Shown in pieces: positions 42,665 through 52,126 of a stretch of 64,000 nt of DNA. The stretch lies in assembly GCA_937924775.1 (NCBI GenBank), contig CALDUT010000004.1:248001-312000 (forward strand). Reading direction: 5' to 3'. Under the pieces are notes generated by a model that was not told where the DNA came from, did no database searches, and saw only the letters and a program-made list of their open reading frames with translations. Within the stretch, counting starts at the first letter, position 1. Each line of letters starts with the position of its first letter. The DNA is from an uncultured Gemmata sp. (GTDB lineage Bacteria > Planctomycetota > Planctomycetia > Gemmatales > Gemmataceae). The position numbers were made by a program, and so were the translations under genes.

Positions 42665-45600
42665 ATGAGTATTGCCTGCCCTTACTGTAAAGCGGTACTC
42701 AATCCCAAAGGGCTGAAGCCCGGTCGTTTTCAGCCGAAGTGCCCCGGCTGTAGCAAACCATTTCTACTTGTGGTGGCCGAGGATGCCCGCACGGTCCGGG
42801 TGCTGTCGCTGGCGCCGTCGGCATCCCAGCCACGGCGAAAACTGACTCCGGAAGAACACGCGGCCTTATTGCTCGAAGGCAAAAACCCTGCCGATTATGG
42901 GGAGCCTCCCGATGCCGCTGGGCCGAAACCCGCCCCCAACGACGCGACAATACCCGTCAAAACCCGACCGAAATCGGAACCCCCCGCGGCCCTGTCGGCA
43001 GACCCGAACGTGACCGGGGATTTCACCGAACTCGAAAAACTGGCCTCTCCATCAGGGTTCGATCCCCATGCCACCGGGGATTTCACCGAACCGGAGAGCC
43101 CGGCCGCCCCCCCCCCGACCTCAGCCAGCGAAACTCTCACCATTCGCCAACCGGTTGCCGATCCCAACGCCACCGGCGATTTCACGGAGCCGGAGAATTC
43201 CCGGCTCCGTCCACAGGCGACCGCCGATCCCAGCACCACCAGTGAATTCACTCCAGCCCAACCCGCGCCGGTGGACTTTCATGACAAACCCACTCATAAA
43301 GACCCCGCTGATGAGGTCGTCGAGAAACCGCGGAAGAAATCCCGCCCCGCGGCGGATTTTGTCGCGGAATTCCAAACGGACGATGACAAACCGCCTCGCT
43401 TGGGTGGCTATGAAGTTCTGAAAGTTCTCGGCAAAGGCGGCATGGGAGCGGTACTCCTGGGGCGGCAGATTTCCCTGGATCGCAAAGTCGCTCTCAAGGT
43501 GATGCATCCCAAAATCGCCAAAAATCCCAGCTATGTGGCACGCTTCACGCGGGAGGCCTACGCCGCCGCGCAACTGACCCATCACAATGTGGTCCAAATT
43601 TACGACATCGGGGAAGACAAAGGCCGGCATTTCTTCAGTATGGAGTTTGTGCAAGGTCAATCGTTGACGGATGTCCTCAAAAAGGAAGGTAAACTCGCTC
43701 CCGATGTGGCCGTCAATTACATTCTGCAGGCCGCGCGCGGGTTACGCTATAGCCACAATCAAGGCATGGTTCACCGCGACATCAAGCCCGATAATTTGAT
43801 GCTCAACACGGAAGGGATTGTCAAAGTCGCCGATTTGGGCTTGGTGAAGTTGCCCACTGGCGAATTGGACAATTGGGATGCGGAGGAGGCACCCGCAGAA
43901 GCCCGCGCTGCGCAACTGACCCATGCCGGGGCCGTGATGGGCACCCCGGCGTACATGTCGCCGGAACAAGCTACCGACTCCGCGTCCGTCGATGCCCGGG
44001 CCGACATCTACTCCCTCGGTTGCACCCTTTATGTGCTACTGACTGGAAAACCGCCTTTTGAAGGCAAAACCGCGCTGGAGATCATCAGTAAACATCAGAC
44101 CGAGCCAATCGTTCCTCCCGATGTGGTGGTCAAACGCGTTCCGCCGGCACTGTCGGCCATTCTTCTGAAGATGATGGCCAAAAAACCGGCCGATCGCTAT
44201 CAGTCGATGGACGAAGTTATCGCGGCGCTCGAGGGGTTTTTGGGGCTGGAACACGCCGGCACTTTCAACCCCAAAGAAGAACAAGCCGATCAGATCGAGA
44301 AATGCGCCCATCAATACCAATTCCGTTCGAAGGCGGGTCTGAAGCGTTCGCTGGCGATTGGCTTTTTCGTCATCAGCGGGTTGGGTCTGGTGGGTTCGGC
44401 GTTAGCCGGTCTGCCGGGCTTGGCCGGGGGCTTTTTAGGCCTCGCGATCATGACACCGTTGGCGTATTTCATCGTGCAGGGTCTTTTCTCCGGGTCAATT
44501 GTCTTCAAAAAAGTCCGTGCGGTGGTATTTGGCTGGCGTTGGACAGATTGGCTCTTCTGGGGTGGGGGAAGCATGCTGTTTCTCGCGACCCTGTATCTGC
44601 TGGGTCTGTTGTGGTCGTGGTTGGGTTTTGCCATGCTCGCGGGGCTGTTGGCCTTCGCCCTGTGGTTCTGCGTCGATCGTCGGGCCGCCCAGGAGCAGGA
44701 GAAACCACTGGAGGAAGCCCGCAGTTTGCTACGCTCGTTGCGGGTACAGGGGTTAGAAGAGGACGCGATCCGGCAGTTTGTGTGTAAATACGCGGGCCCC
44801 TATTGGGAACCGCTCTACGAGGCACTGTTTGGTTATGAAGCCATGATGGCCGCGCGGGCTTCACGCAAGGGTGTCACCGGGGAGACGTGGAAGAAGTTCG
44901 CGACCTGGCGGGACCCGATTGTGCAGTGGGCCGATGCCCGTATGGAAGCGCAACGGCTGGCCCGCGAGCGGGCCCACCTTCAGCATGTGGAAGCGCAAGC
45001 CCTTGTGGCTGAAGGGGTTAGCCAAGACGAAGCGAAAGCCCGGGCCGAAGAAATGGCCGCGGAGATGGTCGAACACGCCGCGGAGGCTCAACAAGCCCGT
45101 CGCGCCGGCAAGGAGGTCAACATCCGCGAATTGGTTGCTGCCGTCCGCGAACGCCGCCGCCCGCAGCCGGGGATGACTATCGCCGGTAAGAAACACCGCA
45201 ATTTGTGGTTCAAAGATTTTGTCAACAATTGGTTTGGTCGCCGTTTACGTCTCACCCTCGGAGCCGTCGTTTTCGCCGCCGGCTTGCTTTGGCTCCACCA
45301 AAACAATCTGCTCAAAGAGAACCAAGCGATCGTGGCTATCAGCCAGGGCGACCTTGAAGCCGCCCAAAAAGCTGCCACCGCGACCAGTCGTGCCCCGACC
45401 AAACCCCTGAAAATCCCCGGGAATATCGTCACGCTGCCAGAGGAACTGCAACCGGTCCTTAACACCTGGGCTTTGCCCCTCACCGGGCTGATGCTGCTTC
45501 TCAACGGACTTTTCTACTTTGGCTGGAAACCGACGCTGGTCACACTCCCCGGGGCTGCGATCGCTCTTTTTGGCCCGCAATGGGGTATTCCCGCTGTGGA

Positions 45601-45679
45601 AATCCTGACCTCACAACACCTGAGCTTAGCGATCGGGGCAGTTCTGATGTTGGTTGTCGCCCGATTCCTCCGGCAGTAG
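42665..45679 (+). CDS. Membrane Ser/Thr protein kinase with zinc-ribbon and TGDFTE repeats
   Basis: A 1004-residue PknB-type kinase. N-terminal zinc ribbon: CPYC (5-8) and CPGC (26-29). Then a disordered Pro/Thr-rich arm (about 55-245) with four copies of DPxxTxxFT at residues 113, 133, 166 and 188, three reading TGDFTE. Kinase domain 249-530: GKGGMGAV glycine loop, Lys278 in VALKVM, catalytic HRDIKPDN (370-377), DLG in place of DFG (390-392), and SPE in the activation segment. C-terminally there are two helix pairs (about 555-660), a long charged helical stretch and three more membrane helices at the end. It lacks PASTA domains. Same strand as the WXG100/EccC-like genes but with a separate -10, so a regulatory link is only suggested by position. 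Confidence 0.9.
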   Translation: MSIACPYCKAVLNPKGLKPGRFQPKCPGCSKPFLLVVAEDARTVRVLSLAPSASQPRRKLTPEEHAALLLEGKNPADYGEPPDAAGPKPAPNDATIPVKTRPKSEPPAALSADPNVTGDFTELEKLASPSGFDPHATGDFTEPESPAAPPPTSASETLTIRQPVADPNATGDFTEPENSRLRPQATADPSTTSEFTPAQPAPVDFHDKPTHKDPADEVVEKPRKKSRPAADFVAEFQTDDDKPPRLGGYEVLKVLGKGGMGAVLLGRQISLDRKVALKVMHPKIAKNPSYVARFTREAYAAAQLTHHNVVQIYDIGEDKGRHFFSMEFVQGQSLTDVLKKEGKLAPDVAVNYILQAARGLRYSHNQGMVHRDIKPDNLMLNTEGIVKVADLGLVKLPTGELDNWDAEEAPAEARAAQLTHAGAVMGTPAYMSPEQATDSASVDARADIYSLGCTLYVLLTGKPPFEGKTALEIISKHQTEPIVPPDVVVKRVPPALSAILLKMMAKKPADRYQSMDEVIAALEGFLGLEHAGTFNPKEEQADQIEKCAHQYQFRSKAGLKRSLAIGFFVISGLGLVGSALAGLPGLAGGFLGLAIMTPLAYFIVQGLFSGSIVFKKVRAVVFGWRWTDWLFWGGGSMLFLATLYLLGLLWSWLGFAMLAGLLAFALWFCVDRRAAQEQEKPLEEARSLLRSLRVQGLEEDAIRQFVCKYAGPYWEPLYEALFGYEAMMAARASRKGVTGETWKKFATWRDPIVQWADARMEAQRLARERAHLQHVEAQALVAEGVSQDEAKARAEEMAAEMVEHAAEAQQARRAGKEVNIRELVAAVRERRRPQPGMTIAGKKHRNLWFKDFVNNWFGRRLRLTLGAVVFAAGLLWLHQNNLLKENQAIVAISQGDLEAAQKAATATSRAPTKPLKIPGNIVTLPEELQPVLNTWALPLTGLMLLLNGLFYFGWKPTLVTLPGAAIALFGPQWGIPAVEILTSQHLSLAIGAVLMLVVARFLRQ

Positions 45680-45834: not shown

Positions 45835-46107
45835 ATGTCGCAAGCCATCGTCGATCCTACGGAGCTTCGCCGCTTCGCCGGTAACCTCAAACGCTTCAAC
45901 GCCGATTTGCAAGCGGCGGTGGCCGGGCTGCACGGGCAGCTCATGGCCCTGGGCGATAGCTGGCGTGACCAGGAACATGATCGCTTCCGGCAAGAGTTCG
46001 AAGCGACGATGCAAGTTCTCGAACGCTTCCTCGAAATTTCGGAAAACCACATTCCCTTCCTCTTACGCAAAGCGGAGCGGATCGAAGAATACCTCGCACA
46101 ACGGTGA
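45835..46107 (+). CDS. WXG100-like small helical protein
   Basis: A 90-residue protein with the size and helix-turn-helix layout of WXG100/ESAT-6-type secretion substrates. Helix 1 (about 8-38) and helix 2 (about 48-88) flank a turn at residues 40-46 (GDSWRDQEH). The turn has Trp43-Arg-Asp where the family motif is Trp-x-Gly. No signal peptide and no cysteine. WXG100 proteins are exported as helical dimers by EssC/EccC ATPases, and such an ATPase is encoded 900 bases downstream. ATG 45835 has GGGAG 7 bases upstream and a -10 at 45792. The next gene starts 3 bases after its stop. Secretion is inferred, not shown. Confidence 0.75.
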   Translation: MSQAIVDPTELRRFAGNLKRFNADLQAAVAGLHGQLMALGDSWRDQEHDRFRQEFEATMQVLERFLEISENHIPFLLRKAERIEEYLAQR

Positions 46108-46110
46108 CGC

Positions 46111-46743
46111 ATGCCAGCCGACGTTCGCTCGATCGCCGCACTCCAGCACTGGCGGGCCCAACTGGCCACTTATGGCGAGATATTGGTCGAAGCCATGGCC
46201 GGAGTCGATTTGGAAATCCGTCGCATGCAGGATTGGCTCGAAGAGCAACTCAGCCTCTGGAAAGGAGCCATCCGACAGTGCGAGGAGGAGGTGACCCAAG
46301 CCAAAGCGGAGCTGGCCCAACGCCAGTTCCCCACCTGGGATGGCCGAGAACCCGATTGCACCGTTCAGGAGCGGAATCTCCGCCGGGCCAAAGCCCGTTT
46401 GGAGTACGCGGAAGAGAAAGTCGAGATGATCCGCCGCTGGATCACCCGGCTTCCCAAAATGATTGACGAGGTCTTCACTGGGCCGTCGCGTCGGCTTCAG
46501 TCGATGCTGGAAGCCGATGTGCCCAACGCCTTGGCCGAATTGGGCCGGCGGCTGGCCGCTTTGGAAAGTTACGCCGGCCTGCGGCCCGATCACGCCCCGC
46601 TCGCCAGCACAGCCACATTGATCGGCCAGCGCGATACGCCGCCCCCAACCCGTCACACTGATGCGACTGATCGTGACTCCGCACCCTCCCCATCCCCGGT
46701 TTCATCTCCGTCAGAAACGCTACAGCCTGAGGAGAATTCATGA
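46111..46743 (+). CDS. Coiled-coil protein of the WXG100/EccC-like operon
   Basis: A 210-residue protein without a recognised family. Residues 1-155 are predicted helical with long charged stretches (GVDLEIRRMQDWLEEQLSLWK, VQERNLRRAKARLEYAEEKVE), typical of coiled coils. The last 50 residues are Pro/Ser/Thr-rich and disordered. No signal peptide or membrane helix. It is tightly placed, 3 bases after the WXG100-like gene and overlapping the next by ATGA, so it is probably made with them. It may be a partner or chaperone of the WXG100-like protein, or a LXG-like substrate. Confidence 0.65.
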   Translation: MPADVRSIAALQHWRAQLATYGEILVEAMAGVDLEIRRMQDWLEEQLSLWKGAIRQCEEEVTQAKAELAQRQFPTWDGREPDCTVQERNLRRAKARLEYAEEKVEMIRRWITRLPKMIDEVFTGPSRRLQSMLEADVPNALAELGRRLAALESYAGLRPDHAPLASTATLIGQRDTPPPTRHTDATDRDSAPSPSPVSSPSETLQPEENS

Positions 46744-46961
46744 GGTTCGGGACCACCCGCAGCCAAATCTATGATGCTCACAAAACGGCGCAGGCCCAAT
46801 GGCTGGCCACAGAAGAATTCTGGGACGATGAAGTTCGCCGCGAACATGGGGAGACCTGCGTTGAACCGCTCGATGCCGCGGTGCGTGAGGTTCTCCGGGC
46901 TATCGACCAACTGGCGATCATCGCCACGCAAATACGCAACGATTGTGAATTCACCGGCTAA
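46740..46961 (+). CDS. Small acidic helical protein of the WXG100/EccC-like operon
   Basis: A 73-residue protein, net acidic, mostly helical (THKTAQ-like start, then EPLDAAVREVLRAIDQLAIIA). Its ATG overlaps the preceding stop in ATGA (46740-46743), implying translational coupling, and the ATPase gene starts 41 bases later. Neither Trp is in a WxG turn. No family recognised. Size and position fit an adaptor or second small substrate, but nothing in the sequence proves that. Confidence 0.6.
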   Translation: MRFGTTRSQIYDAHKTAQAQWLATEEFWDDEVRREHGETCVEPLDAAVREVLRAIDQLAIIATQIRNDCEFTG

Positions 46962-47002
46962 TCCACCGGATTCTTCGTGAGGTGGCAGGGTAGGGGGGGC
47001 TG

Positions 47003-50000
47003 ATGTCGGAAAGTCTCTTAGATCGTCAGCGGGCCGCCATTGAACGGCTTTTGAACGCGGTGCGTTCCCGGGCCGCCGCCGAGGCGGAACTGACGGCTGC
47101 TTTTCAAGCGGCCACCGAGAAAGCCGAACGTGACATCGCCCGGGCCCGCAAAACCCACGCTGAGTCCTTGACCCAACAACTCGCCGAACTGGAGGCGACC
47201 CACACCGCGACGCTGGAGCAGATCGCTGCGGAATATACCGCGGAACTCGCGGCGATCGAAAAGACTCGCGACGAACGGCGTCAACAAATCACTGCCCGCT
47301 TCACCGCGGCCCACCAGAGGGGGCACGAGGATTACCAAAGCGACCTGTGGAAGCACGATTCTCTCCTGGAGGCCGGGGAAAAAGCGGCTCACGAGCAGCT
47401 CGACACCCTCCATCGCAAAGCTGCCGCCGGGGAAGAACAGGTTCAAACCCTCTGGACTCAGACCGAACCGCTTCTGGCCCGCGCCGGCGTTAGCTGCGAA
47501 CAGATCGCCTTCCACGAGCAACTCCCCCCGCCCACCGACGACGACCCCCTGCAGCAGATGAACAAATGGCTCGACGCGGCCCGTGAACAGCTCACCATTC
47601 TGGAGAAAGCCGCCACGCCACGCTGGGGCCGCCCACAACGGCTGCCGGTGCTGATCTTTCTGGGGGCGGGGTTGGGTTCGGTCGCGTGGGCGATCATCGA
47701 CGATCCGCTCGTGGCTGGGATAATCACGGCCGTCGTTGGTCTGGTGGTCGGGCTGAGTATGTGGCTGTGGCTGCGGTCCCGGGGGCGGAAAACCACCATT
47801 CAACGGGGTCGATCCATCGCCCAAGATCTCGCCGAAGCGACACGCTCGGTGCAATATCTTCGCGCCTACGCGCAAGAAGGATTCCAGACTGAGCTGAAAC
47901 GCCTTCGCGACAAACACGCCCGCCAACGCCAAAAAACCGACGACTATTACAAGCCGCTTCTAGAATTCCAAAAAAAACAGTTCGATGAAGAGCTGCTCCG
48001 CGTCGAAGCAGAGTTTGCTACCGCGGCCGAAGCCTTACGCCGCAAACGCGGCCATGCCACCCGCGCTGCCGAAGACCGCTACCGAAACCACAGAGAAGAC
48101 CTCACACACCGACTCGGTGCTGAACTGAAAGCGGCGGAAGAAACCTATGCCCACCGCATCGCCGATGCCACCGCCACTCGCGACGCGGCGTGGCGTGCGA
48201 TGACCGCTCGCTGGCAAGCCGCCATCGCCGAGGTAGAGGCGACCTTCGCTGCACTGCGGGCCGCTGGGCAGGAATTCTTCCCCCCGTGGGAAGAACTGAC
48301 ACCCCAGCGGCCGCGGCCGCAGCGCATCCCATCCGGCATTCGCTTGGGCGAATTCCAGATCGATGAGAACAGTCTGCCCACACTTCTCACTTTGCCCGAT
48401 GCGCTCCGGCAACCCGTCCCAGCCTTCATCCCCTTCTCCGAACGATGTTCCGTCCTGTTTCGCTGCCGGGATGATGGCCGTGCGGCCGGTGTGCAGGCGT
48501 TACAATCACTCCTGCTTCGCTTCCTGACCGGGCTGCCACCGGGTCAAGTCCGCTTCACCATCATCGATCCGGTGGGGCTGGGGGAAAACTTTGCTGCCTT
48601 CATGCATCTGGCCGATTACGACGAAAAACTCATCTCAGCCCAAATCTGGACCGAAGCCCGGGACATCGAACAGCGGTTGGTGGACCTCACCGACCACATC
48701 GCGAGCGTGATTCAGAAGTACCTCCGCAATCAGTACGCGTCGATTGAAGAGTACAACCGGGCAGCCGGGGAGGTTGCGGAACCCTACCGTGTGCTGGTCA
48801 TCGCCAACTTCCCATCGAATTTCACTCCGGAAGCGGCCAAGCGGCTGGTTAGCATTGCGACCAGTGGCCCCGCGTGCGGCGTGTGCGTACTCACCACGGT
48901 GGATACCCGCGCCGCCATGCCGCGTGACTTCAACCTCGCCGATTTGGAAGCGGTCAGTTACACCGTGGCTTGGAAAGACGGAAAATTCGTCCCCAAAGAC
49001 CCACTGTTAGCTTCCTTCCCCCCGCACATAGATCGACCGCCCGATCCAGCTACGATCGCCGCCTTGGTTCGCCGAGTGGGCGCGGCCAGTCTGGAGGCCG
49101 GTCGCGTCGAAGTCCCGTTCGACTTCATTGCTCCTCAGCGCGATGCGGTGTGGCAAGCCAGTGCCGCCAAAGGTTTCGAGGTGCCGGTGGGCCGGGCCGG
49201 GGCGACCCGTCAGCAGGTCTTTTCGCTGGGTCGCGGCACCGCTCAGCATGCGGTCATCGCGGGCAAAACCGGTTCGGGCAAATCCACTCTGCTGCATGCG
49301 CTCATCACCAATCTGGCCCTGACCTACAGCCCGGACGAAGCCGAACTGTATCTCATCGACTTCAAAGAAGGTGTGGAATTCCAATGGTATGCTGCCTATC
49401 GGCTGCCGCACGCCCGCGTGGTGGCCATCCAATCGGAACGAGAATTCGGCTTAAGTGTACTGCAGCGGCTCGATGGTATTCTGCATGAACGTGGCGAAAA
49501 ATTCCGCGCGGCCGGGGTGAATGACTTGGCCGCCTATCGCGCGGCCCGGCCGGAGGAGAAAACGCCGCGGATTCTCCTAGTTATTGATGAATTCCAAGCC
49601 TTTTTCACCGAAGACGACAAACTCGCCCAGGAAGCGGCGCTGTTGCTCGATCGGCTCGTGCGGCAGGGCCGGGCTTTTGGGCTGCACGTCGTCCTCGGTT
49701 CGCAAACCCTCGGCGGGGCGTATTCCTTAGCACGCAGTACTATTGACCAGATGGCTGTTCGTATCGCCTTGCAATGCTCCGATGCCGACGCCCAACTGAT
49801 TCTGAGCAAGGATAACACCGCGGCGCGGCTCCTGTCGCGGCCGGGCCAGGCCATTTACAACGACCAGAACGGCCTCACCGAGGGGAACGAGCCGTTCCAA
49901 GTGGTCTGGCTGTCGGACGAGCGGCGCGAACAGATTTTGAAGGAATTGCAGCAGCGCGCGGGCGACCGCTGGCCCCCGCCGCGGGTGTTCAGCGGCCATA

Positions 50001-50881
50001 CTTTCGCCGATTTGGCAACCAACTCCGCTCTAGCGCAGCAACTCACCGCGCCGGGGCCGGTCCAAGTTCCCACTGCATGGTTGGGCGACCCGGTGGCGAT
50101 CAAGGAGCCGACTGCGGCTCCCTTCCGGCCTCATGGCGGTACAAATTTGCTCATCGTGGGGCAGAGTGAAGAGACTGCCCGGGCCCTCGTTGTCGCGGCG
50201 GGTGTGAGTTTGGCGGCGCAAGTGCCCGGAACCCTCTTCACCGTGCTGGACGGCACCCCCGACGATGCCGACCAAGCCGACTATCTGCGGCGTTTCGCCG
50301 CCAAGCTACCCCACGCGATCGCCCCGAATCGCGTAGAGCTGGCCGCGGCTTTGGCCGAGCTGACCAGTGACATCGACCGGCGGCAGAAGGGTGAAGCCGA
50401 ACGCACCCCGCGCTTCCTCTTCATCTTTGGGCTTCAGCGGTTCCGTGAATTGCGAAAATCTGACGACGATTTTGGCTTTGGCCGCCGTGGCGAACGGGAG
50501 CCTGCGCCGGCGGAACGACTGGCGACCATCCTCCGCGACGGGCCGCTGGTCGGTCTTCACACGGTGGTTTGGTGCGATTCGCTCGTCAACCTCCAACGCG
50601 CGTTCGACCGACCACTATTGCGGGAATTCGGCATGCGCGTACTGTTGCAAATGAGTGCGACCGACTCCAGTACACTGATGGATTCGCCAGCGGCATCGAA
50701 GCTTGGGCGGCACCGAGCTCTGTTTTTGCACGAAGAACAGGAACGCGCGGAGAAATTCCGCCCCTATGGGCTGCCGGCCGCGGACTGGCTGGAGACTGTG
50801 TGCGCCACCCTGCGTGCCCGGAGCCAATCCATCACGCCCGCCCCTCCTGCGGGGTCGGCTCCGATTTCGAGTCCTGCATGA
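47003..50881 (+). CDS. EccC/EssC-like FtsK-SpoIIIE ATPase with three RecA-like domains
   Basis: A 1292-residue membrane ATPase. Residues 1-200: long coiled coil. Residues 214-257: two membrane helices. Residues 262-420: second coiled coil. Then three RecA-like domains. First (about 470-690): no P-loop, but core strands VRFTIIDPVG and YRVLVIANFPSNF. Second (about 690-985): intact Walker A GKTGSGKST (754-762) and Walker B LLVIDEF (Asp862, Glu863). Third (about 1030-1275): eroded P-loop GQSEETAR (from 1053), with Thr and Ala where Gly and Lys should be, and FLFIFGLQRF without the acidic pair. Two helices plus three ATPase domains match the EccC/EssC motor of type VII secretion. The start has a G-rich ribosome site very close (46993-46999). 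Confidence 0.85.
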   Translation: MSESLLDRQRAAIERLLNAVRSRAAAEAELTAAFQAATEKAERDIARARKTHAESLTQQLAELEATHTATLEQIAAEYTAELAAIEKTRDERRQQITARFTAAHQRGHEDYQSDLWKHDSLLEAGEKAAHEQLDTLHRKAAAGEEQVQTLWTQTEPLLARAGVSCEQIAFHEQLPPPTDDDPLQQMNKWLDAAREQLTILEKAATPRWGRPQRLPVLIFLGAGLGSVAWAIIDDPLVAGIITAVVGLVVGLSMWLWLRSRGRKTTIQRGRSIAQDLAEATRSVQYLRAYAQEGFQTELKRLRDKHARQRQKTDDYYKPLLEFQKKQFDEELLRVEAEFATAAEALRRKRGHATRAAEDRYRNHREDLTHRLGAELKAAEETYAHRIADATATRDAAWRAMTARWQAAIAEVEATFAALRAAGQEFFPPWEELTPQRPRPQRIPSGIRLGEFQIDENSLPTLLTLPDALRQPVPAFIPFSERCSVLFRCRDDGRAAGVQALQSLLLRFLTGLPPGQVRFTIIDPVGLGENFAAFMHLADYDEKLISAQIWTEARDIEQRLVDLTDHIASVIQKYLRNQYASIEEYNRAAGEVAEPYRVLVIANFPSNFTPEAAKRLVSIATSGPACGVCVLTTVDTRAAMPRDFNLADLEAVSYTVAWKDGKFVPKDPLLASFPPHIDRPPDPATIAALVRRVGAASLEAGRVEVPFDFIAPQRDAVWQASAAKGFEVPVGRAGATRQQVFSLGRGTAQHAVIAGKTGSGKSTLLHALITNLALTYSPDEAELYLIDFKEGVEFQWYAAYRLPHARVVAIQSEREFGLSVLQRLDGILHERGEKFRAAGVNDLAAYRAARPEEKTPRILLVIDEFQAFFTEDDKLAQEAALLLDRLVRQGRAFGLHVVLGSQTLGGAYSLARSTIDQMAVRIALQCSDADAQLILSKDNTAARLLSRPGQAIYNDQNGLTEGNEPFQVVWLSDERREQILKELQQRAGDRWPPPRVFSGHTFADLATNSALAQQLTAPGPVQVPTAWLGDPVAIKEPTAAPFRPHGGTNLLIVGQSEETARALVVAAGVSLAAQVPGTLFTVLDGTPDDADQADYLRRFAAKLPHAIAPNRVELAAALAELTSDIDRRQKGEAERTPRFLFIFGLQRFRELRKSDDDFGFGRRGEREPAPAERLATILRDGPLVGLHTVVWCDSLVNLQRAFDRPLLREFGMRVLLQMSATDSSTLMDSPAASKLGRHRALFLHEEQERAEKFRPYGLPAADWLETVCATLRARSQSITPAPPAGSAPISSPA

Positions 50882-50971: not shown

Positions 50972-52126
50972 ATGGCGAAACTTCCCCTTCCTCGGGTTGC
51001 AATTCTCGGGGCCGGCCCCATTGGCATCGAAGCGGCACTGTATGCGAAGGCCTGCGGTCTGCCGGTTGCGGTTTATGAACGGGGCGCCGTCGGAGAACAT
51101 CTCCGCCGGTGGGAATTTATCCGCATGTTCACACCTTTTGGCTGGAATGTCACACCGCTGGGGTTAGCGGAATTGTCCCGCACCCAAGGCCGCCGCGAGA
51201 TCCCACAACAAAGTGATTGGCTGACCGCGCGTGAGTTTCTCCAGTCGTATTTGCTGCCATTGGCCGAATCCCCAACCTTGCAAGATTGCGTGCATTGCGG
51301 GCACACCGTGCTCCAAGTGGGCCGGGCGGGGAACCGAACCAAGTCCGACGCCAGCGACCGGGGGCCTTTCCGCCTCCTGGTGAGTGATGCCAATGGTCAG
51401 GAACGGATCGTGCTAGCCGATGTCGTTCTGGATTGTACCGGGACTTTGAGCCATCCCAACTGTATCGGTGAGGGGGGCATACGGGCCATCGGTGAAGAGA
51501 CGGCGCGGCCGCACATCGCCTGGGGAATCGAGGATATTTGCGGCTCAAAACGCGAATTCTATGCGGGCCGTAGCATCGCGCTCATCGGCGATGGCTACTC
51601 CGCGGCAACCACGATCTGCGCTTTGGCGGACCTAGCGGAAGAATTTCCGGAAACATGGGTTTTTTGGATTTCCAATGGCCCCCGGGGGGCCCCGTTGCCA
51701 CGAATTCCCCAGGATCCGCTCAAGGAACGCGATCGGCTCGCGGTGCGGGCCAACGCCCTGGCCACCCGCGGCGATGGCAACCTCGAATTCCACCCACAAA
51801 CCGTGATCGATGAAGTGATCTGCCACGGCCCGAACAGTGGCTTCCGGATCGCCGGTCGTACGGCTGGGCGGCCGGTGTCGTGGGACGTGGAACGGGTGAT
51901 TGCCAATGTGGGCTACCACGCCGATCTCACTCTTTGTGCCCACGGGCTTGTCGATCGCCCCGCCAAGCAGCCAGAAACCCGCGAACCGGGCTACTACATT
52001 GTGGGGGCGAAAAGCTACGATCGCGATTCCGGCTTTCTGCTGGGTCATGGCTTCGAGCAGATTCGCCAGGTTTTTGTACACATCACCGGTCGATCCCGGC
52101 TCAATCTTTATGCCTCCGCGGCCTAG
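50972..52126 (+). CDS. FAD/NAD(P)-binding oxidoreductase
   Basis: A 384-residue two-dinucleotide-fold flavoprotein. The FAD site is VAILGAGPIGIEAALYA near the N-terminus followed by VYERG; the second nucleotide site is SIALIGDGYSAATTICAL (about residue 200). A late segment (YYIVGAKSYDRDSGFLLGHGFEQIRQV) closes the FAD fold. It resembles flavin monooxygenase/thioredoxin-reductase-like enzymes but lacks a redox-active CxxC, so the reaction is unknown. GGAGG lies 8 bases before ATG 50972, 90 bases after the ATPase gene and on the same strand, so it may belong to the same operon. Confidence 0.8.
   Translation: MAKLPLPRVAILGAGPIGIEAALYAKACGLPVAVYERGAVGEHLRRWEFIRMFTPFGWNVTPLGLAELSRTQGRREIPQQSDWLTAREFLQSYLLPLAESPTLQDCVHCGHTVLQVGRAGNRTKSDASDRGPFRLLVSDANGQERIVLADVVLDCTGTLSHPNCIGEGGIRAIGEETARPHIAWGIEDICGSKREFYAGRSIALIGDGYSAATTICALADLAEEFPETWVFWISNGPRGAPLPRIPQDPLKERDRLAVRANALATRGDGNLEFHPQTVIDEVICHGPNSGFRIAGRTAGRPVSWDVERVIANVGYHADLTLCAHGLVDRPAKQPETREPGYYIVGAKSYDRDSGFLLGHGFEQIRQVFVHITGRSRLNLYASAA

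Follow-up and report, generated by a model that had tools for sequence, protein, structure and literature searches.

Within a 64,000-nucleotide stretch of an uncultured Gemmata sp. (NCBI GenBank assembly GCA_937924775.1, contig CALDUT010000004.1, positions 248,001 to 312,000; hereafter the window, with positions counted from its first letter), four genes that we label A, B, C and D lie together on the + strand at 45835-50881. In nearly all cases these genes are inherited together or lost together, even where they are no longer linked, and they encode a system that is related to type VII secretion and forms a branch of its own. We consider it reasonably probable that the four products make up a single, four-part machine, anchored in the membrane in most cases, that exports protein. 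The genes are as tightly spaced as a preliminary description of this DNA had claimed, and all were located where it had placed them: 3 nucleotides separate A from B, B and C overlap by 4 nucleotides, and 41 nucleotides lie between C and D.

The co-occurrence of the genes is most clearly seen in 392 genomes of the phylum, among which A was found in 60 and D in 62: 59 genomes hold both, three hold D only, one holds A only and 329 hold neither (Fisher P 3e-65, with kinship not corrected for). The D-only cases are one genome with a contig edge at the locus (G044) and two genomes (G270 and G387) that, like the single A-only genome (G347), are 61-80% complete. Within a set of 59 relatives that includes the window's own genome, D was matched in 52 at E<1e-50 and A in 47; another threshold counts D in 53, the extra match being a canonical FtsK only. 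In the five relatives with D and without A, the 5' end of D falls at a contig end (for G020, as deduced from a truncated match), and the seven relatives that lack D also lack A. D is present in 35 of the 37 genomes of the window's own family (f1) and in all seven of a second family (f2).

Eleven genomes, picked from the match positions of A and D, carry these two genes apart from one another, and both B and C were found in all 11. The B model that matched in each of them found no B in the 22 genomes lacking A and D that were tested, and C was likewise found in none; these 22, a subset of the 329, comprise 20 members of the same class and two of the window's own family, and are 97% complete or more. 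In G159, D, A, C and B lie at 0.23, 0.71, 1.94 and 2.66 Mb; in G045, B and C remain together with A and D elsewhere; and in G205 and G358, A-B-C remain together with D elsewhere. As each of these four genomes is a single contig, we rejected an assembly artefact as the source of their scatter. In the remaining seven, A and D are on different contigs or, in the case of G407, on one of two contigs. Because the genes are retained as a set even though they are unlinked, A, B, C and D very probably work together.

Linkage itself was followed in 40 loci from 38 relatives; 34 of these loci contain A, 37 contain B and 37 contain C. Every locus with A also contains B and C, in the order A-B-C-D in 33 of 34, a count that rests on our own start calls and whose exception (L076) reflects a mis-set start of B. 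B and C overlap by 4 nucleotides in 14 of these 34 loci, and lie within 10 nucleotides of each other in 27. In a second set of 80 loci (L106-L185), which repeats some genomes of the first (L038-L077) and is not independent of it, the four genes stand in order in 52; among the other 28, D lies within 700 nucleotides of the sequence start in 15, B-C-D occurs without A in seven (five of them cut near B), and D occurs by itself, preceded by 1.3 to 6.6 kb of sequence, in six (L122, L137, L142, L143, L153 and L175). Conservation of the linkage in relatives, which the preliminary description had left to be checked, is borne out by these counts, with the full set kept in 34 of 40 and 52 of 80 loci. 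Across 34 rows, divergence of A, B and C tracks that of D (r 0.89, 0.94 and 0.94), as expected from common descent.

Judged by its family profile, A is a WXG100 protein. It scores above the gathering cut-off of PF06013, confirming its earlier assignment from size and from a Trp-Arg-Asp turn, and all 35 aligned A members match this family at E<=0.01; the score against NCBIfam TIGR03930 (WXG100 secretion target) lies below the cut-off (30.3 vs 44.85 bits). The W-R-D turn is invariant, and W-x-G occurs in none of the 35. Among solved structures, the A profile finds its best relative in Helicobacter pylori HP0062 (5.7e-11), which has W-R-D in its turn (PMC3397514); with HP0062 as the query, the genome contigs gave 44 pattern matches, of which none was confirmed. 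Alignments show A to be the most conserved of the four proteins, and the window's genome holds one WXG100 gene over the cut-off.

The product of gene C had been listed simply as a small acidic protein. The gene stands, and its label needs correction, as C is probably a second, shortened WXG100-like protein that partners A. W28 and D30 are its only residues invariant across 38 sequences; the W-x-D turn that they form corresponds to the W-R-D of A, and W-x-G is found in no C. Profile comparison of A with C aligns the two turns over 33 columns (probability 67%, P 5.1e-5), as against P of 0.01 or worse for 20 column-shuffled versions of A compared with C, and of 0.0097 or worse for A and C compared with two coil stretches of D. 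Six of the 38 C members match PF06013 weakly (best 5.3e-4); the window C gives no match to it at E<=1, the family libraries returned nothing above cut-off for C, and among solved structures its profile found designed and generic coiled coils only.

Gene B encodes what is, in its AlphaFold prediction, a long helical hairpin, with a predicted local distance difference test score (pLDDT) of mostly 92-99 along the two helices and low confidence in the tail. The family libraries yielded nothing above cut-off for this protein, and no nuclease family. We rejected a family assignment from the fold search: matches of Z up to 10.9 were to unrelated coiled coils (SMC, dynein, VIPP1, PI3K) and, by the tool's guide on helical models, mean only a common arrangement, so that no family was assigned. 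The B alignment comprises 36 loci and the window, L076 being left out for its mis-set start. Among the homologs, a Phycisphaerales B (L160:5279-6340) bears a C-terminal Imm33-like domain (PF24719, 1.4e-14), and the C-terminal part of another B, from a contig labelled Thermoflexales, is long and has no Pfam match, although a D-to-ExK pattern was recognised in it by eye.

As read from sequence and model together, D is a triple FtsK/EccC-like ATPase in which the middle domain alone is intact. Walker A and B motifs were seen in that domain only (11 aligned D rows inspected), and with the exception of residue 755 they are invariant in all 41 D, 31 of which were used to build the D search model. The predicted structure of residues 425-1292 (mean pLDDT 86.5) aligns with ATPases 2-3 of EssC (Z 29.2, 490 residues, root-mean-square deviation 6.7) and with the cytoplasmic part of EccC along its three ATPase domains (Z 28.4, 735 residues); the root-mean-square deviation of 14.3 in the latter case indicates that the individual domains match and their mutual placement does not. 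The N-terminal part is predicted to contain coils, and a hydropathy scan places two adjacent hydrophobic segments within the residues listed in Table 1. This pair is full in 37 of the 41 D, lesser in two and missing in two at the threshold used; in a second, partly overlapping set scanned at a lower threshold, it is present in 62 of 70 D (70 of 80, truncated ones left out). Both the two-helix, three-domain FtsK-SpoIIIE architecture and the likeness to EccC that had been proposed for this protein are thereby upheld. A separate, canonical FtsK exists in the same genome. Additional N-terminal domains occur in two homologs: the D on the contig labelled Thermoflexales (L179:2209-6153) has WD40 repeats in its N-terminal third, and one Rhodococcus plasmid D (L188:10489-14454) has an N-terminal TerD domain (PF02342, 4.4e-19).

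Type VII secretion is understood from work on one-membrane and mycobacterial cells, and its classical types, T7SSa with EccC and T7SSb with EssC, likewise combine a WXG100 protein with a triple FtsK-type ATPase. The window system differs from both in that only the middle ATPase domain is intact, in its separate branch, and in scores far below the EccC cut-offs (EccCa 109.1 vs 509.15, EccCb 108.5 vs 346.55) and that of EssC (100.4 vs 778.4 bits). A tree built on the active ATPase domain, with 12 of the 41 D rows, four later loci and five plasmid D described below, unites the planctomycete and plasmid D in a group of 21 rows that is separate from EccC/EssC as well as from FtsK (support 93/96, just under the tool's star, with several rows long-branched). 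The system is thus distinct, as had been suggested, and the term "reduced", if taken to mean an ESX operon that has eroded, is not supported, given that D groups with plasmid D. It also differs from T7SSb in its parts: YukC/EssB was found in none of the 59 genomes, the window's own included, and YukD/EsaB was not found in the window's genome (G000), the Bacillus subtilis control being positive in both searches. Among the relatives, six of 59 have YukD matches, five of them over the cut-off; four belong to a family designated f3 and two to the window's own genus (G018, over the cut-off, and G004, under it). The reported absence of Ess parts holds for YukC/EssB and for YukD in this genome. The EccB model was silent in all 59 genomes and in its control, and is therefore uninformative. 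At one f3 locus (L191:1465-2848), the YukD-like gene adjoins a gene for a ubiquitin-conjugating enzyme (PF00179, 2.4e-12), and perhaps belongs to a ubiquitin-like pathway rather than to type VII secretion.

A tblastn search of plasmids with D (best 40 of 363 records) gave five standout matches, two in Rhodococcus and one each in Caballeronia, Deinococcus and Helicobacter (E 7e-102 to 6e-42). A matches three of these five records, and none of the five plasmid D has an adjacent hydrophobic pair. The Caballeronia record reads vWA, A, proteins of 436, 113 and 76 amino acids, D, CARF, vWA, PP2C and kinase, and its neighborhood is a TerY-P/CoCoNuT setting. On the Helicobacter plasmid, A is followed by a coiled-coil protein with a WHH nuclease domain (PF14414, 1.1e-11), a SUKH-1 immunity gene (PF09346, 1.6e-6, over the cut-off), a 77-residue protein and D. 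Rhodococcus AH-ZY2 has the order D, a 314-residue protein, a 73-residue protein and A; here the B profile matches the N-terminus of the 314-residue protein (110 columns, 70%, P 4e-5) and the C profile weakly matches the 73-residue one (P 0.0011). The B profile matches the Deinococcus protein less well (P 0.0017), and a comparison of B with the two coils of D gave P 0.035 and 0.067. Homology of B to a larger carrier is thus supported in one case, Rhodococcus, and is positional elsewhere. In PADLOC and PHROGs, D matches by the shared ATPase domain, with weak coiled-coil matches in addition, and nothing was found for A or C.

Systems of this general kind have been described. A table footnote in PMC3482391 (2012) lists planctomycetes and others with a solo WXG protein and a distinct YueA-like FtsK/HerA ATPase, of three domains with the middle one alone active, apparently as "mobile versions of T7SS". 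The domain plan is the same as that seen here and planctomycetes are named; the passages in question are silent on B, C and a membrane anchor, whereas B and C are obligate in the present set. A similar system is reported from CoCoNuT islands in sections of PMC11090510, where a triple ATPase that is active in its middle domain is accompanied by two WXG100 proteins, one of them lacking the motif, and by a coiled-coil protein fused to a nuclease. The window D, too, adjoins two WXG100-type proteins, A by Pfam and C probably so by motif and profile. Unlike that CoCoNuT Type III-A extension, which is described as having no membrane segments, the window D and 37 of 41 D carry the hydrophobic pair, and the window B matches no nuclease family. 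A passage of PMC4978471, naming HP0062 and HP0066, treats WxG plus FtsK as the minimal type VII set. The kind of system that the preliminary description pointed to thus has precedent in PMC3482391 and PMC11090510. What appears to be new is that B and C are obligate, that most D have the membrane pair, that the set is kept as a unit across the phylum, and that a plasmid relative holds a nuclease-immunity pair in the B slot; a partial literature search found no paper on the four-gene set.

In the mechanism that we favor for the exporter, D would assemble as a hexamer, with its transmembrane hairpin anchoring it in the inner membrane. A and C would dock on D as substrate or activator, much as EsxB docks on EccC, and ATP use in the middle domain would drive A and C, together with hairpin B, across the inner membrane, with B serving as a carrier or passenger of export. 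Because the plasmid B slot holds coiled coils, one of which bears a nuclease toxin domain and precedes an immunity gene, the analogy suggests that B may be a toxin-free form of an export carrier.

A number of observations weigh against such an exporter. We found no outer-membrane part, and recognised no toxin gene beside the window operon. By motif search, the Yxxx[DE] signal is present in none of 35 A and in three of 38 C, and a loose search for the C-terminal WXG100 pattern HxxxD/ExxhxxxH, as given in a passage of PMC3935865, picked out 12 of 35 A and 27 of 38 C. The full hydrophobic pair is missing from four of 41 D, and from eight of 70 in the second set. The best fold matches of the D model are FtsK DNA motors (Z 31.9, 274 residues), leaving room for a nucleic-acid substrate, and the combination of an FtsK-like motor with an A that lacks Yxxx[DE] speaks against equating the system with ESX. 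Two genomes, G053 and G057, carry second B-C-D copies without A (L065 and L067) beside a complete set. On the plasmids, the B profile has no clear match to the Caballeronia (P 0.023) and Helicobacter (P 0.074) proteins, the C profile does not match the 76- and 77-residue proteins in the C slot (P 0.052 and 0.15), and these two C-slot proteins contain no tryptophan, so that the equivalence of the proteins in both slots to B and C is positional.

Some of these points favor a rival, which we regard as unlikely, in which the system is an intracellular, membrane-tethered conflict or defense device, in which D would target nucleic acid or a complex triggered by phage, and A, B and C would be adaptors that stay inside the cell. 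The resemblance of D to DNA motors and the lack of Yxxx[DE] in A fit this idea, as do the relatives in TerY-P/CoCoNuT islands (PMC11090510, PMC4978471, in the passages at hand) and the doubt voiced in the former that the version lacking membrane segments works by a standard mechanism. Most planctomycete D, however, have such segments; in addition, PADLOC matches are confined to the shared ATPase domain, we recognised no vWA, PP2C, CARF or nuclease gene next to the window operon, and the wide retention of the set is unlike that of a defense island. Retention in nearly all f1 and all f2 genomes, together with the high conservation of A, would suit an envelope or cell-division housekeeping machine of the FtsZ-less planctomycetes, in which a membrane motor would have A, B and C as its structural partners. 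We judge this improbable, because genomes at least 97% complete lack the whole set, the 22 tested ones among them, and because a separate canonical FtsK is present; the finding that FtsK is essential in Planctopirus limnophila, reported in a passage of PMC10632474, does not bear on D. Decay of a classical ESX or Ess operon with loss of its other parts would account for a WXG100 gene beside an EccC/EssC-like ATPase and for the missing YukC and own-genome YukD, but is very improbable given the separate branch of the middle ATPase domain, the extra obligate genes B and C, and a set that is conserved rather than decaying.

Returning to the exporter, a wider scenario is possible, and we offer it tentatively: Planctomycetota may own a non-mobile, four-part exporter of the type VII kind, anchored in the membrane in most cases, that works in a two-membrane cell, with B as universal carrier and A/C as activator, and the toxin-bearing plasmid and defense-island versions may have been captured from it, or the planctomycete set domesticated from them. 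A four-gene set retained across a two-membrane phylum after its dispersal constitutes a small, defined system for studying the role of the minimal WXG100-ATPase unit. It allows one to ask about export, and about how carrier and toxin domains became joined, and clear predictions follow from it for gene deletions in planctomycetes in culture.

Table 1. Coordinates of the four genes and of selected protein features in the window.
Feature	Window position	Strand	Basis
Gene A, 90-amino-acid WXG100 protein	45835..46107	+	PF06013 36.3 bits, cut-off 27.3
W-R-D turn of A, residues 43-45	45961..45969	+	invariant 35/35
Gene B, 210 amino acids, predicted long helical hairpin, low-confidence tail	46111..46743	+	AlphaFold helices 8-72, 84-157; 37-row alignment
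Gene C, 73 amino acids, probable second WXG100-like protein, short first helix	46740..46961	+	W28, D30 invariant 38/38; profile match to A
W-x-D turn of C, residues 28-30	46821..46829	+	alignment of 38 C
Gene D, 1292-amino-acid triple FtsK/EccC-like ATPase	47003..50881	+	FtsK_SpoIIIE 1.4e-32; fold matches
Hydrophobic segment pair of D, residues 213-259, likely membrane hairpin	47639..47779	+	hydropathy scan
First, degenerate ATPase-like domain of D, ~residues 430-700	48290..49102	+	model and alignment; borders approximate
Walker A of middle ATPase of D, GKTGSGKS, residues 754-761	49262..49285	+	754 and 756-761 invariant 41/41
Walker B of middle ATPase of D, LLVIDE, residues 858-863	49574..49591	+	D862, E863 invariant 41/41
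Third, degenerate ATPase-like domain of D, ~residues 990-1275	49970..50827	+	model and alignment; borders approximate

The genes flanking the operon had been put forward as possible parts of the system, a proposal that the synteny in relatives leads us to reject. A large Ser/Thr kinase encoded upstream of A (42665-45679; Pkinase 4e-49) has a full-length ortholog in two of the 40 loci, and the flavoprotein gene downstream of D (50972-52126) adjoins the operon in 10 of 12 same-genus loci and in none of the 28 others. Between C and D, a Ser/Thr kinase gene is present in four same-genus genomes (L045, L046, L077 and L111, with L108 and L109 repeating two of the four); its product in L045 matches Pkinase at 1.3e-45, and kinases also accompany the related TerY-P islands.

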